In this document: one piece after another, positions 8,183-60,839 of the stretch
Numbering within the stretch: position 1 is the stretch's first letter
Layout: each line of letters begins with the position of its first letter
NCBI RefSeq assembly: GCF_002356355.1
Contig: NZ_AP018052.1
Span: 2,232,001 to 2,296,000 of the forward strand
Length of the DNA stretch: 64,000 nucleotides
DNA from: Thiohalobacter thiocyanaticus
Lineage (GTDB): Bacteria > Pseudomonadota > Gammaproteobacteria > Thiohalobacterales > Thiohalobacteraceae
Direction of reading: 5' to 3'
The notes under the pieces: generated by a model
The model's database searches: none
Told to the model about the DNA's origin: nothing
What the model saw: only the letters and a program-made list of their open reading frames with translations
Position numbers and translations under genes: made by a program

Positions 8183-8386
8183 AAAATCCTTCAACGCAGA
8201 GGCGCGGAGACGCAGAGATTATTGAGGCAGGTGGATATCAGAATGATTATCCGCCATTCCGGCGCGGGCCGGAATGACGGGAAAACATGATCAGGGCTAC
8301 CAACGTTTGTCGATAAATTTGCAATTTTTGCGATCTCTGCGCCTTTGTACCCATCGGGCATAAACGCCCCTGCGTTGAAGGTTTTC
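8183..8386. repeat. Family E long-armed inverted repeat, copy 1, with nested elements
   Basis: The arms TTCAACGCAGAGGCGC (left) and CTGCGTTGAA (right) enclose a family D half copy at 8251-8280. The right arm is interrupted by an 18-base insertion at 8349-8366 (see findings). The right end overlaps the sdhE stop codon. Confidence 0.8.
8251..8280. repeat. Family D half copy, nested in family E
   Basis: A single hairpin with CCGCCATTCCGG and CCGGAATGACGG arms. It lies in the centre of the family E element. Confidence 0.8.
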
Positions 8387-24731: not shown

Positions 24732-24917
24732 GATGGCCACGAAATCCACGAAAGTAATCATTGATTCGAGAAATCCTGCGTAGGTCGGGTTAGCCCGGCA
24801 GGGCGTAACCCGACGCGGTTCCCACCGTTGTGTCGGGTTACGCTGTCGCTAACCCGACCTACAGATTTAATGCTGGATACATTAATCATTTTCGTGGGTT
24901 TCGTGGATTTCGTGGCC
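24732..24917. repeat. Family G long-armed inverted repeat enclosing a family B copy
   Basis: The left arm GGCCACGAAATCCACGAAA and the right arm with its complement flank the family B element at 24780-24862. Spacer AT-rich words TAATCATT are also inverted. The right end abuts the pheS stop codon. Confidence 0.85.
24780..24862. repeat. Family B inverted repeat, copy 5, nested in family G
   Basis: Full copy with GTAGGTCGGGTTA and TAACCCGACCTAC arms. Confidence 0.92.
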
Positions 24918-25975: not shown

Positions 25976-26156
25976 ACCTCAACGCAGAGGCGCAAAGGCG
26001 CAGAAATCGGATTGTTGAACCCGTCATCCCGGCGCAGGCCGGGATCCAGATACCGCTGCGGTCAATGGATTCCGGCCTGCGCCGGAATGACGGGAAATTA
26101 ATTGACCCGATTATTCTTTGCGTTCTCTGCGCCTCGGCGTCTCTGCGTTGAGATCT
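25976..26156. repeat. Family E long-armed inverted repeat, copy 2, enclosing a family D copy
   Basis: The arms CTCAACGCAGAGGCGC and its diverged complement ending CTCTGCGTTGAG enclose family D at 26021-26093. It occupies most of the gap between pheS and rplT. Confidence 0.85.
26021..26093. repeat. Family D inverted repeat, copy 3, nested in family E
   Basis: Two hairpins, CCGTCATCCCGGCG with CCGGGATCCAG and TGGATTCCGGCC with GCCGGAATGACGG. Confidence 0.9.
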
Positions 26157-32430: not shown

Positions 32431-32491
32431 CAACAATCAAGAGCAAGAGCGCCACGGAATACACGGAAAGCACGGACAAGTTAAAATAGCC

Positions 32492-32528
32492 GCACGTCGG
32501 GTTACGCCCTTCGGGCTTACCCGACCTG
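32492..32528. repeat. Family B half copy, copy 6
   Basis: A single hairpin: GTCGGGTTACGCCC with GGGCTTACCCGAC, nested in family F. Confidence 0.8.
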
Positions 32529-32557
32529 CGGCTTGCGGTCCAGTAGGCACCTGATTT

Positions 32558-32652
32558 CCGTCATCCCCGTACCGGCCTGCGCCGGCACAGGCTCCGGCGG
32601 GGATCCAGATATCGCCGCGGTCACTGGATCCCGGATTGCGCCGGGATGACGA
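32558..32652. repeat. Family D inverted repeat, copy 4
   Basis: CCGTCATCCCCG and CCGGGATGACG arms. The left hairpin loop carries an extra GCCGGCACAGGCTCCGGC stretch, also found in the copy at 61757. Confidence 0.85.
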
Positions 32653-32662
32653 GGGTAGGCGT

Positions 32663-32744
32663 GTAGGATGGGTGGAGGCGCTTGCGCCGCAACCCATCAC
32701 TCTGCCGGGCAATGATGGGTTTCGCTGTGCTTCACCCATCCTAC
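32663..32744. repeat. Family A inverted repeat, copy 11
   Basis: Full copy with intact GTAGGATGGGT arms, nested in family F. Confidence 0.9.
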
Positions 32745-32769
32745 GCTACTACGCGCCTCGCAATGACGA
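32745..32769. repeat. Family C right-arm fragment
   Basis: Reads GCTACTACGCGCCTCGCAAT then GACGA, matching only the right end of family C. Confidence 0.6.
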
Positions 32770-32785
32770 ATGAATCAGAAATTCC

Positions 32786-32864
32786 GTAGGTCGGGTTAGC
32801 GCAGCGTAACCCGACATTCCCCGCAGCGAGCGTCGGGTTACGCCCTCGGGCTAACCCGACCTAC
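32786..32864. repeat. Family B inverted repeat, copy 7
   Basis: Full copy with GTAGGTCGGGTTA and TAACCCGACCTAC arms, nested in family F. Confidence 0.92.
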
Positions 32865-32940
32865 GGCTCTGACCCCAATCCTTTGTGTATTTTTCCGTGC
32901 TTTCCGTGTTTTCCGTGGCGCTCTTGAACTTGATCCTGCC

Positions 32941-34971
32941 TCACCCCGTTGCCGCATCATGCAGGCCCACCCCCAGTTCGGCCTGGCGGATGTGCTCGAT
33001 CTCGTCGCGCAGCCGCGCGGCCTCCTCGAACTCCAGGTTGCGGGCGTGCTCGTGCATCTGCTGTTCGAGTTGTTTGATCCGGCGCTGGCGCTGCTCGGGT
33101 GACATGCGGCCGTATTCCAGCTGCTCTTCGGCCACCGCGGCGAAACGCCCGGCGGGGATCGGCGCATCGGGGCTGGCGCCTTCCATGATGTCGGCCACCG
33201 CCTTGCGGATGGACTGGGGCGTGATGCCGTGCTCCTCGTTGAAGGCCACCTGCTTGGCGCGGCGGCGCTCGGTCTCGCCGATGGCGCGCTCCATCGAGCC
33301 GGTGATGCTGTCGGCATAGAGAATGGCCTTGCCGTGCAGGTTGCGCGCCGCCCGGCCGATGGTCTGGATCAGGGAGCGGTCCGAGCGCAGGAAGCCCTCC
33401 TTGTCGGCGTCCAGGATCGCCACCAGCGACACCTCGGGGATGTCCAGGCCCTCGCGCAGCAGGTTGATCCCCACCAGCACGTCGAAGGCGCCCAGGCGCA
33501 GGTCGCGGATAATCTCCACCCGCTCCACCGTGTCGATGTCCGAGTGCAGATAGCGCACCCGCACCCCGTTCTCGGCCAGGTACTCGGTCAGGTCCTCGGC
33601 CATGCGCTTGGTCAGGGTGGTGACCAGCACCCGCTCGTCTGCCTCAGCCCGTAATTTCGCCTCGGACAGCAGGTCGTCGACCTGGGCGGCCACCGGGCGG
33701 ATCTCGATTTCGGGATCGACCAGCCCGGTCGGGCGCACCACCTGCTCGACCACCTGGCCGGCATGCTCCGACTCGTAGGGCCCGGGGGTGGCGGAGACGA
33801 AGATGCCCTGCGGGGCCAGGCGCTCGAACTCGTCGAAGCGCAGTGGCCGGTTGTCCAGCGCCGACGGCAGGCGGAAACCGTATTCCACCAGGGTCTCCTT
33901 GCGCGAGCGATCGCCCTTGTACATGCCGCCGATCTGGGGAATGGTCACGTGCGACTCGTCGATCACCAGCAGGGCGTCCGGCGGCAGATAGTCGAACAGG
34001 GTCGGCGGCGGCTCGCCCGGCGCCCGACCGGAGAGGTAGCGCGAGTAGTTCTCGATGCCGTTGCAGTAGCCGAGTTCGGCCATCATCTCCAGGTCGAACT
34101 GGGTGCGCTGCTCCAGGCGCTGGGCCTCGACCAGCTTGTTGTTGTCATAGAGTTGTTTCAGCCGCTCCCTGAGCTCCGCCTTGATGCCGTCGATGGCGTC
34201 CAGGATGGTCTGGCGCGGGGTGACATAGTGGGTCTTGGGGTAGATGGTCACCCGGGGCACCCGGTTGAGCACCTCTCCGGTGAGCGGGTCGAACCAGGCC
34301 AGGCTCTCGATCTCGTCATCGAACAACTCTATGCGCACGGCGTCGCGCTCGGACTCGGCCGGGAAGATGTCGATCACCTCGCCGCGGGCGCGGTAGGTGC
34401 CGCGCTGCAGCTCGACGTCGTTGCGGGTGTACTGCAGCTCGGCCAGCCGGCGCAGCACCTGGCGCTGGTCGATACGGTCGCCGCGCACCAGGTGCAGCAT
34501 CATGCTCAGGTAGGACTGGGGATCGCCCAGGCCGTAGATGGAGGAGACCGAGGCCACGATGATGGTGTCGCGCCGCTCCAGCAGCGCCTTGGTGGCCGAC
34601 AGGCGCATCTGCTCGATGTGCTCGTTGACCGAGGCGTCCTTCTCGATGAAGGTGTCCGAGGCCGGGACGTAGGCCTCGGGCTGGTAGTAGTCGTAGTAGG
34701 AGACGAAGTACTCCACCGCGTTGCGGGGGAAGAATTCACGGAACTCACCATAGAGTTGGGCCGCCAGGGTCTTGTTCGGGGCCAGCACGATGGTCGGCCG
34801 CTGGATGCGCTGCACGACGTTGGCGATGGTGAAGGTCTTGCCCGAGCCGGTCACCCCCAGCAGGGTCTGGTGGGCCAGGCCGCTGTCCAGGCCCTCGACC
34901 AGCGCCTCGATGGCCGCGGGCTGGTCCCCGGCCGGCTGCATGTGGCTGGCAAGTTCGAATTCACGCGTCAT
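32941..34971 (-). CDS. uvrB: UvrABC excision nuclease subunit B
   Basis: DNA repair helicase-like protein of 676 residues that verifies lesions after UvrA loading. Walker A is [15 protein letters not shown] (about 39-53). The beta-hairpin region contains [16 protein letters not shown]. The helicase blocks are [12 protein letters not shown] and [20 protein letters not shown], and the C-terminal UVR (UvrC-binding) domain is [18 protein letters not shown]. Length equals E. coli UvrB (673). No LexA box was recognised upstream. It converges with the redox operon and is divergent from the aminotransferase gene. Confidence 0.97.
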
Positions 34972-36409: not shown

Positions 36410-36554
36410 GATCAAGAGCGCCACGGAATACACGGAAAGCACGGAAATTTTGATTGCCGTGGCGCTTCGCGCCCGGCAATGCAGGAAAAGGTTTTCAACC
36501 CGGGATTTTCCGTGTGTTCCGTGTATTCCGTGGCGCTCTTTAACGCTCTTGATC
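36410..36554. repeat. Family F long-armed inverted repeat, copy 2
   Basis: The arms ATCAAGAGCGCCACGGAATA and its complement enclose a diverged family C fragment (36455-36482). It starts 5 bases after the aminotransferase stop codon. Confidence 0.85.
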
Positions 36555-56387: not shown

Positions 56388-56538
56388 TCGTCTTCTTCCT
56401 GATATCCGGGCCGGATGGCAAGTGGCGGCGGCCGCACGCGGGCGGCCGCCGGCGTCATTCCACTAGGAGTATGCCAAAAAGCACGCAAAAATCAATGCTT
56501 AGCCGAATAACACTCACACAAACCGCGGTTCAGCCTGT

Positions 56539-56615
56539 CCGTCATCCCCGCGCAGGCGGGTATCCAGCATTTGCCGGCTCTGCCAGGCACTGGATTCCCG
56601 CCTGAGGGAATGACG
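56539..56615. repeat. Family D inverted repeat, copy 6
   Basis: CCGTCATCCCCGCG and CCCGCCTGAGGGAATGACG halves between ihfB and rpsA, 26 bases from the rpsA stop. Confidence 0.85.
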
Positions 56616-56641
56616 CGGCTGAAGCGAGTGCCATTCAGTGT

Positions 56642-58318
56642 TCAGCTGTTGCCCTTCTCTTCCATCTGCTCCTTCAGGATGTCCCCGAGGGTGGTGGTGG
56701 CGGAGCCGGACTTGGCATAATCCTGCACGGCCTCGGCTTCCTCGCCGAGTTCCTTGGCCTTGATCGACAGGCTCAGGGTGCGGTTCTTGCGGTCCACGCC
56801 CATGAACTTGGCCTCGACCTCTTCGCCTTCCTTGAGCACGGTGCGGGCGTCCTCGACCCGGTCACGGGCCAGTTCGGAGGCGCGCAGAATGCCTTCAATC
56901 CCTTCGCCGAGATCGATCACTGCTGCCTTTGCATCGACCTCCTTGACGGTTCCTTTAACGATGCTGCCCTTGGGATGGGCGGCCACGAAGTTGGAGAAGG
57001 GATCCTTTTCCAGCTGCTTCAGGCCCAGCGAGATGCGTTCGCGCTCGGGATCCACGGCCAGGACCACGGCCTCGACCTCGTCGCCCTTCTTGAAGTTGTG
57101 CACCACTTCCTCGCCGGTATCGCTCCAGGAGATATCCGACAGATGCACCAGACCGTCGATGCCGCCGTCCAGGCCGACGAAGATGCCGAAGTCGGTGATG
57201 GACTTGATCTGACCAGAGACCTTGTCACCCTTGTTGTGGGTGGCGGCGAACTCTTCCCAGGGATTGGCGTGGCACTGCTTCATGCCCAGGGAGATGCGGC
57301 GACGCTCCTCGTCGATGTCCAGCACCATGACCTCGACCTCGTCGCCCACGTGCACGACCTTGGCCGGGTTGACGTTCTTGTTGGTCCAGTCCATCTCGGA
57401 GACGTGCACCAGACCTTCCACGCCTTCCTCGATCTCGACGAAGCAACCGTAGTCGGCGATGTTGGTGACCTTGCCGAACAGGCGGGTGCTTTCGGGATAG
57501 CGGCGGGACAGATCCTCCCACGGATCGGTGCCCAGCTGCTTCATACCCAGGGAGACGCGGTTGCGCTCGCGGTCGAACTTGAGCACCTTGACCTCGATCT
57601 CGTCACCCACGGCGACCATCTCGCTCGGATGCTTGATGCGCTTCCAGGCCATGTCGGTGATGTGCAGCAGACCGTCGATGCCGCCCAGGTCCACGAACAC
57701 GCCGTAATCGGTGAGGTTCTTGACGATGCCCTTGATGACCATGCCTTCCTGCAGGTTCTTGAGCAGTTCCTCGCGCTCGGCGCTGTATTCGGACTCGACC
57801 ACCGCGCGGCGGGAGACCACCACGTTGTTGCGGCGCTGATCGAGCTTGATGACCTTGAATTCGAGTTCCTTATTCTCCAGGTAGGTGGTGTCGCGCACCG
57901 GGCGCACATCCACCAGCGAGCCGGGCAGGAAGGCGCGGATGTCCTTGATGTCGACGGTGAAGCCGCCCTTGACCTTGCCGCTGATCATGCCCTTGACGGT
58001 CTCGTTGTCTTCGTAGGCCTGTTCCAGTTCCTTCCAGACACGCGCGCGCTTGGCCTTCTCGCGCGACAGGCGGGTCTCGCCGAAACCGTCCTCGACGGAA
58101 TCCAGGGCGACTTCCACGTCCTCGCCCACGTTGATCTCGAGTTCGCCCTGCTCGTTATAGAACTGTTCGACCGGAATCACGCCTTCCGATTTCAGTCCCG
58201 CGTTGACGATGACCACGTCCGGCTTGATGTCGACGACGGTGCCGGTGACGATGGATCCGGGGCGGAGTTCCTGTTTGGCCAGGCTCTCTTCGAACAGTTC
58301 TGCAAAGCTTTCGCTCAT
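56642..58318 (-). CDS. rpsA: 30S ribosomal protein S1
   Basis: Ribosomal mRNA-binding protein of 558 residues with six S1 RNA-binding repeats. The start is [20 protein letters not shown] at 58318; the frame is open 24 codons further without family sequence. Repeats 3-6 show the [20 protein letters not shown] and [20 protein letters not shown] patterns. Length equals E. coli S1 (557). Confidence 0.97.
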
Positions 58319-60700: not shown

Positions 60701-60839
60701 CCGTCATTCCCGCGAAGGCGGGAATCCATGGGGTTCAGCGCGTAGACCGGAATAAGGGCCGGATGGCCCGTTTCCGGCATTCGATCCGGAGTGCCGGGAA
60801 CACTGCGTTTATCCCGGCCTACGACTACGCGAATGACGC
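60701..60839. repeat. Family D half copy interrupted by a family I element
   Basis: A D hairpin (CCGTCATTCCCGCG with CGGGAATCC, 60701-60730) is followed by an inverted repeat starting GCGTAGACCGGAATAAG and ending GCCTACGACTACGCG (family I). The trailing GAATGACG fits the missing end of D, suggesting insertion of I into D. It ends next to the tyrA stop. Confidence 0.65.

Follow-up and report, generated by a model that had tools for sequence, protein, structure and literature searches.

Inverted-repeat shells kept between Thiohalobacter genomes hold palindromes that are often different or flipped in sister species

How do five small repeats come to lie together inside one long-armed inverted repeat, and are they inherited as one block or gathered piece by piece? 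The question is raised by a nest between two genes in the window, a stretch of 64,000 nucleotides (G000:C1:2232001-2296000) of a Thiohalobacter genome, G000, that belongs to a sulfur-oxidizing bacterium and consists of a single contig of 3,233,441 bases. Reading of the window sequence confirmed the nest, in which one pair of F arms surrounds a half-B, a D, an A, a C fragment and a B (Table 1). The arms are 44 nt each, 91% complementary and spaced 411 nt apart, and the nest stretch of 516 nt folds far more strongly than dinucleotide shuffles (z = -13); one stem of its D dimer carries an additional 22-nt micro-hairpin. Beside the right arm, at 32941, ends a gene on the minus strand, which we take to be uvrB-like. 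An earlier note on the window had proposed that the loop of one palindrome is a preferred target for the next, so that the elements moved, probably by a trans-acting enzyme encoded outside the window. The other nests that it listed, with G around B, E around D twice and I splitting D, were all confirmed by direct reading of the sequence. The second F element of the window is nested as well, but its filling, taken for a C fragment in that note, is instead a short GC hairpin in its own right, H, which is a frequent simple filling of F.

Table 1. Nested palindromic elements in the window, with positions counted from its first base.
Feature	Position	Strand	Remark
F shell, left arm	32436-32479	+	6 nt past the stop codon of the upstream plus-strand gene
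Single B unit (GTAG-type REP), inverted	32496-32529	-	Also in the T. thiocyanaticus ortholog
D dimer (CGTC-type REP)	32559-32651	+	In T. thiocyanaticus too, in opposite orientation
A dimer (GTAG-type REP / REPIN)	32663-32744	+	Not in the T. thiocyanaticus ortholog
C half-element (CGTC-type REP)	32750-32768	-	Not in the T. thiocyanaticus ortholog
B dimer (GTAG-type REP / REPIN)	32786-32864	+	Not in the T. thiocyanaticus ortholog
F shell, right arm	32891-32934	-	
Second F element, filled with short hairpin H	36410-36554		F shell in T. thiocyanaticus too
G shell around B dimer	24732-24917		Direct reading
E shell around D dimer	25976-26156		Direct reading
E shell around D element	8183-8386		Direct reading
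D split by family-I palindrome	60701-60839		Direct reading
D insertion, 143 bp, clean	56504-56646		Empty site ATGCTTAGC / TGTTGCCC in the T. thiocyanaticus ortholog

The ortholog of the nest in Thiohalobacter thiocyanaticus Hrh1 (G002, same genus, 91% complete), at C2:234606-234898, has F arms around H, D and a half-B but no A, C half or full B. When the G000 interior was reverse-complemented, it aligned to this ortholog over D and the half-B with 142/182 identical columns and a score of 215; in forward orientation it scored only 70. Because this ortholog holds different, partly inverted contents, the nest was filled piecemeal. Inheritance of the nest as a single block is thus ruled out by the orthologs, and more generally nests are not always passed on as one unit, since orthologous sites, that of the window included, hold different fillings. 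From the compared sequences, we infer an order of insertion in which the D and the half-B, shared in inverted form with T. thiocyanaticus, are the older contents; the simplest reading of the other three pieces (A, C half and full B) is that this lineage gained them.

F proved to be a true repeat family, as its arm core gave 137 matches in G000 with up to 2 mismatches and 0 when read backwards as a reversed control. Chance nesting of unrelated repeats is ruled out, with more than 100 copies of the arm family and 0 in that control. In the G000 stretches covering F sites (864 kb including the window), we found 75 F pairs, nearly every one enclosing a smaller palindrome, namely, D, B, C, A, combinations of them, or H, with family calls that are motif-based and approximate. 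By eye, the pairs at 786900 and 803733 were alone in having no recognizable core. Outside F, only 21/164 A-D dimers had a detectable outer inverted repeat, so that, taken with the F pairs, shells are rarely empty and REPs mostly free; the idea that every REP dimer is shelled is ruled out by the same count. H as a private core of F is also ruled out, since similar hairpins were found outside F.

The F elements lie a few bases from stop codons and, by crude gene calls, are commoner between convergent genes (22/73 versus 76/426 gaps) and rare between divergent genes (5/73 versus 86/426 gaps), and a function at mRNA 3′ ends is possible. As in MITEs, there are inverted terminal arms without coding capacity; two pairs enclose a gene-like stretch. 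These two, at L013:5858-6316 (G000:840858) and L035:13984 (G000:3081984), surround a small gene-like reading frame together with palindromes. The pair at 840858 has an interior of equal length in T. thiocyanaticus, and its reading frame, which starts MLVEKGLTYGIRGCVYEVYRQLGAGFLEKVYEKALL.., presumably resembles those of GxxExxY proteins. Tandem GATCAA units were seen immediately outside several F arms, on their upstream side, e.g., at L013:11085 (agatcaagatcaagatcaagagc). In addition, three F elements with near-identical GC hairpins span 2 kb at G000:1626679, 1627454, and 1628678 (L024), a local amplification that is partly present in T. thiocyanaticus too.

To these two genomes we added a third, MAG NAT125 (G001, 78% complete), which is nearer to G000 at about 92% identity, compared with about 83-92% for G002. 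The F stretches of G000 aligned to G002 nearly everywhere. The G002 stretches were initially picked for holding F, but a resulting retention bias is ruled out, because the missing regions were added and 75/75 G000 F sites were resolved, with 69 (92%) having paired F, 3 having one arm, and 3 being without F. One of the three sites without any F in T. thiocyanaticus, 785220, was aligned for a target-site duplication and is too diverged for one to be read; nor could a target duplication be delimited for F, C, or D. The A-D elements common to G000 and G002 were 56/120 outside F and 34/55 inside F, and the retention of shells compared with that of outside elements gave a Fisher p of about 2.5e-12, calculated on an earlier 66/70 shells.

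The contents of these conserved shells, on the other hand, were frequently not the same. Among 57 F interiors compared between G000 and G002, 19 were colinear, 12 inverted, 24 without spacer homology, and 2 ambiguous, where comparisons of H-filled sites are weak owing to the loose definition of the H core. Spacers diverge fast, so that the count without homology is an upper bound on replacement and some of these cases may be decay. About 7 of the inverted interiors were strong, such as those at 522851, 922793, 940692, 1263858, 2367528, and 2787886, and several were marginal. At 940692, the outer flanks had not moved (TAATG / TTATG on the left side), which indicates that the loop was turned and not the whole element. 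The third genome served to polarize several sites. At 2709514, F[B] is found in both G000 and G002, the spacers being the same, and G001 has F[H-like + D]; at 842699, G000 and G002 have F[D] and G001 has F[C], with the diagnostic GGCACGGA kept in the left arm in all three; at 1534061, F[C + B] is common to G000 and G002 and G001 is filled otherwise; and at 3081984, each genome is filled differently. A clean loop insertion was found at 2798545, where the F[H] of G002 corresponds in G000 to a shell with that same H, turned around, together with a 148-bp D unit. The alignment of filled and empty forms across related genomes, which the earlier note had suggested, therefore yielded differently filled versions, and its view that the elements moved is supported by the fillings at orthologous sites. 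The nests have been rebuilt repeatedly over evolution, with the outer hairpin kept and the contents often different or flipped in sister species.

Several sites carry two same-direction F arms 12-26 bp apart. In G001, the shells at L151:9505 are concentric, F1(F2(D)F2)F1, and at 842699 and 847892 an F2 element comes after an F1 left arm. At 2080095, G001 has a complete F and then a second right arm, and G000 has one hybrid right arm there. Elements whose two ends differ in type, F1 at one and F2 at the other, are to be expected if adjacent arms collapse, and they amounted to 9/73 in G000, 9/69 in G002, and 14/41 in G001. The double shells in the sister genomes suggest that F inserted into F and that arm collapse followed, along with arm-mediated inversion. 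Both the collapse and the inversion mechanism are read from end states, the collapse from a handful of double-arm sites, the number of which is near a rough random-insertion estimate at such density.

The guests of these shells belong to known REP classes. In A (GTAGGATGGGTG..) and B (GTAGGTCGGGTTAG..), a GTAG tag opens an imperfect palindrome, as in GTAG REPs, and both often occur as head-to-head pairs in high copy in G000, as in REPINs. Exact A tags numbered 266 in G000, 144 in G001, and 26 in G002, and exact B tags 198, 147, and 80, respectively. C (CGTCATTGCGAG) and D (CGTCATYCC) have the CGTC tag, an AT-starting stem, and inverted dimers throughout, as in CGTC REPs, and D units further have the CCA tail (..GGGAATCCA / ..GGGATCCA). 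A search of the genome for a RAYT gene, another check proposed at the outset, found two (NF047646, 200 bits each), both outside the window, one at G000:2148796 with B dimers on both sides and one at G000:321525 flanked by A units. A cognate RAYT thus stands beside its own REP family for A and for B, and these flanking genes and the copy numbers link the two families to their likely movement by RAYT. The proposal of a trans-acting enzyme outside the window accordingly holds for A and B; none was found for C, D, and F, for which the RAYT-like genes found in G000 gave no candidate. G000 and G001 each have a RAYT, and none was detected at E 0.001 in G002, which is 91% complete. A third RAYT-like gene, at G000:C1:661838-662164 (L001), is flanked by an inverted repeat (GGGGTCGGTGACAACTGAG.. 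/ ..CTCAGTTGTCACCGACCCC) that is not A, B, or F, similar to the TIRYT arrangement (PMC3733652). This RAYT (661904) was ruled out as the enzyme of F, as no F, A, or B is nearby, and F arms were found beside none of the three RAYT-like genes.

Nesting also occurs at smaller scale and in other shells. Of 16 J copies (about 62 bp), nearly all occupy one position within D; about 11 true copies of K are placed inside the hairpin of C; and the orthologous D copies at 940692 and 1263858 differ by J. Some D elements have long outer flanks, i.e., the clean insertion in the window, GAATGGCACTTAC.. at 2362018, and TTRCTCAGG..TCAGGAATATWGGCTACA at 1258943 and 2701494, suggesting that the moving D unit may exceed the CGTC dimer. 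An E shell at L025:12160 (G000:2077160) holds C in this genome and D in T. thiocyanaticus, so that content exchange is not confined to F.

We observed that shells are conserved and that their contents differ or are inverted, along with insertions that are clean, double shells of concentric form, and RAYT genes beside A and B; on this basis, we consider it probable that an old F shell stays in place and that its loop contents turn over by REP insertion, arm inversion, and arm collapse. F would be an old long-armed inverted-repeat element, mostly static at gene 3′ ends, and its loop would be a container with changing contents. Mobile REP-class palindromes would enter the loop one by one, A and B, of the GTAG type, being carried by RAYT transposases whose genes lie at other places in the genome, and C and D being of the CGTC type. 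Recombination between the inverted F arms may flip the loop. When F lands inside an F loop, the neighboring same-direction arms would be short direct repeats, and their collapse would swap the contents while the outer shell remains. Against this reading, many replaced interiors yielded neither an intermediate form nor a donor copy.

Interiors with the same spacers at non-orthologous sites, namely, 922793 / 2787886 in both species, 913380 / 1033488, and 560010 / 2893955 in G002, could also be produced by ectopic gene conversion, in which hairpin breaks are repaired from another F copy via arm homology and the whole interior is copied with no new insertion. The arms of one element are slightly more alike than those of different elements (96.6% versus 95.8%), and many replaced interiors change across the full arm-to-arm span, as such copying would predict. 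However, a donor matching on both sides was found for few replaced interiors, and the clean loop insertion at 2798545 and the double shells require insertion, which makes this reading rather doubtful. It is far less credible still that whole filled F elements inserted independently into a few tolerated intergenic spots and thereby came to share sites. F does lie a few bases past stop codons and avoids divergent promoters, and solo REPs of different families are found in the same intergenic regions in both species, but paired F arms are present in both species at 92% of the sites, and outer arm bases and flanks match despite differing contents, as does GGCACGGA in all three genomes.

The notion of the loop as a preferred target fared unevenly, as an enrichment in F loops exists for B and D and not for A, so that it is not shown in general. 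In G000, F loops contain 21/85 (about 25%) of the A-D copies that are lineage-specific, although these loops account for roughly 5-10% of the free intergenic DNA. By a crude estimate, their REP-free DNA comes to about 5 kb, compared with some 65-120 kb of free DNA in the other intergenic regions; enrichment therefore exists, though uneven. Half-elements inside F were 7/138 for A (no enrichment), 42/165 for B, 57/297 for D, and 9/79 for C. A is ten times commoner in G000 than in T. thiocyanaticus, yet it is not enriched in F loops, and strict loop targeting is unsupported for this family. That transposases actively pick the loop of an existing palindrome is unlikely in our judgment. The share of lineage-specific A-D copies in F loops, the positions of J in D and K in C and the excess of B and D in F speak for it, but outside F a shell can be detected around only a minority of the A-D dimers, and spreading of composites plus selection against insertion elsewhere could yield equal enrichment. 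Indeed, the spacers shared at different sites show that part of the F elements took their contents along when spreading; this raises the counts of B and D in F without any targeting.

REP dimers within longer palindromes have been described as GTAG-15 in A. variabilis and CGTC-1 in H. neapolitanus (Di Nocera et al. 2013, PMC3733652), and REP-less shells were not found in those genomes (PMC3733652). F resembles them in holding GTAG- or CGTC-type dimers inside a longer unrelated inverted repeat. However, by their description in PMC3733652, those shells hold one REP family each, whereas F holds A, B, C, D, and H, singly or in combination, and orthologous F shells differ in content and orientation. 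A and B resemble REPINs and GTAG REPs with RAYT, i.e., REPtrons (PMC3116915, PMC2817692, PMC8266576), in starting with GTAG, in forming imperfect palindromes and inverted dimers, in their high copy number, and in having two RAYT genes, one with A and one with B at its flanks, but they are additionally guests in a larger shell. C and D, with their CGTC start, inverted dimers, and no dedicated transposase found, are like the CGTC REPs dRS3 of Neisseria and RPE-6/RPE-4 of Rickettsia (PMC3733652), but differ in that they sometimes lie in F, E, or G shells and have further elements nested within them, J in D and K in C. F itself, at about 100-450 bp, non-coding, intergenic, and with inverted terminal arms, is like the MITEs NEMIS/Correia, ERIC, and RUP (listed in PMC3733652) but is fixed in position with exchangeable contents, and no RAYT-like gene is F-flanked. 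In the literature searched on nested bacterial REPs, we found nothing closer than PMC3733652. REP dimers in longer palindromes have thus been known since 2013, and what is new is that a shell is conserved while its contents can be exchanged and inverted.

The 2013 report gave no explanation of REP dimers inside longer palindromes. This genus offers three genomes that can be compared, the complete one having about 75 F sites, and insertion, nesting, inversion, and exchange can be read from the orthologs; the mobile part, consisting of REPs and RAYT genes, can be separated from the fixed part, the F shell. It becomes testable whether hairpin arms drive the exchange of their own loop contents. 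More tentatively, F shells may be transposase-independent exchange sites, with the hairpin kept at the 3′ ends of genes and arm recombination flipping or swapping the inner palindromes. If so, unrelated REP families would be shuffled among fixed positions, and the shell would perhaps be kept by selection.
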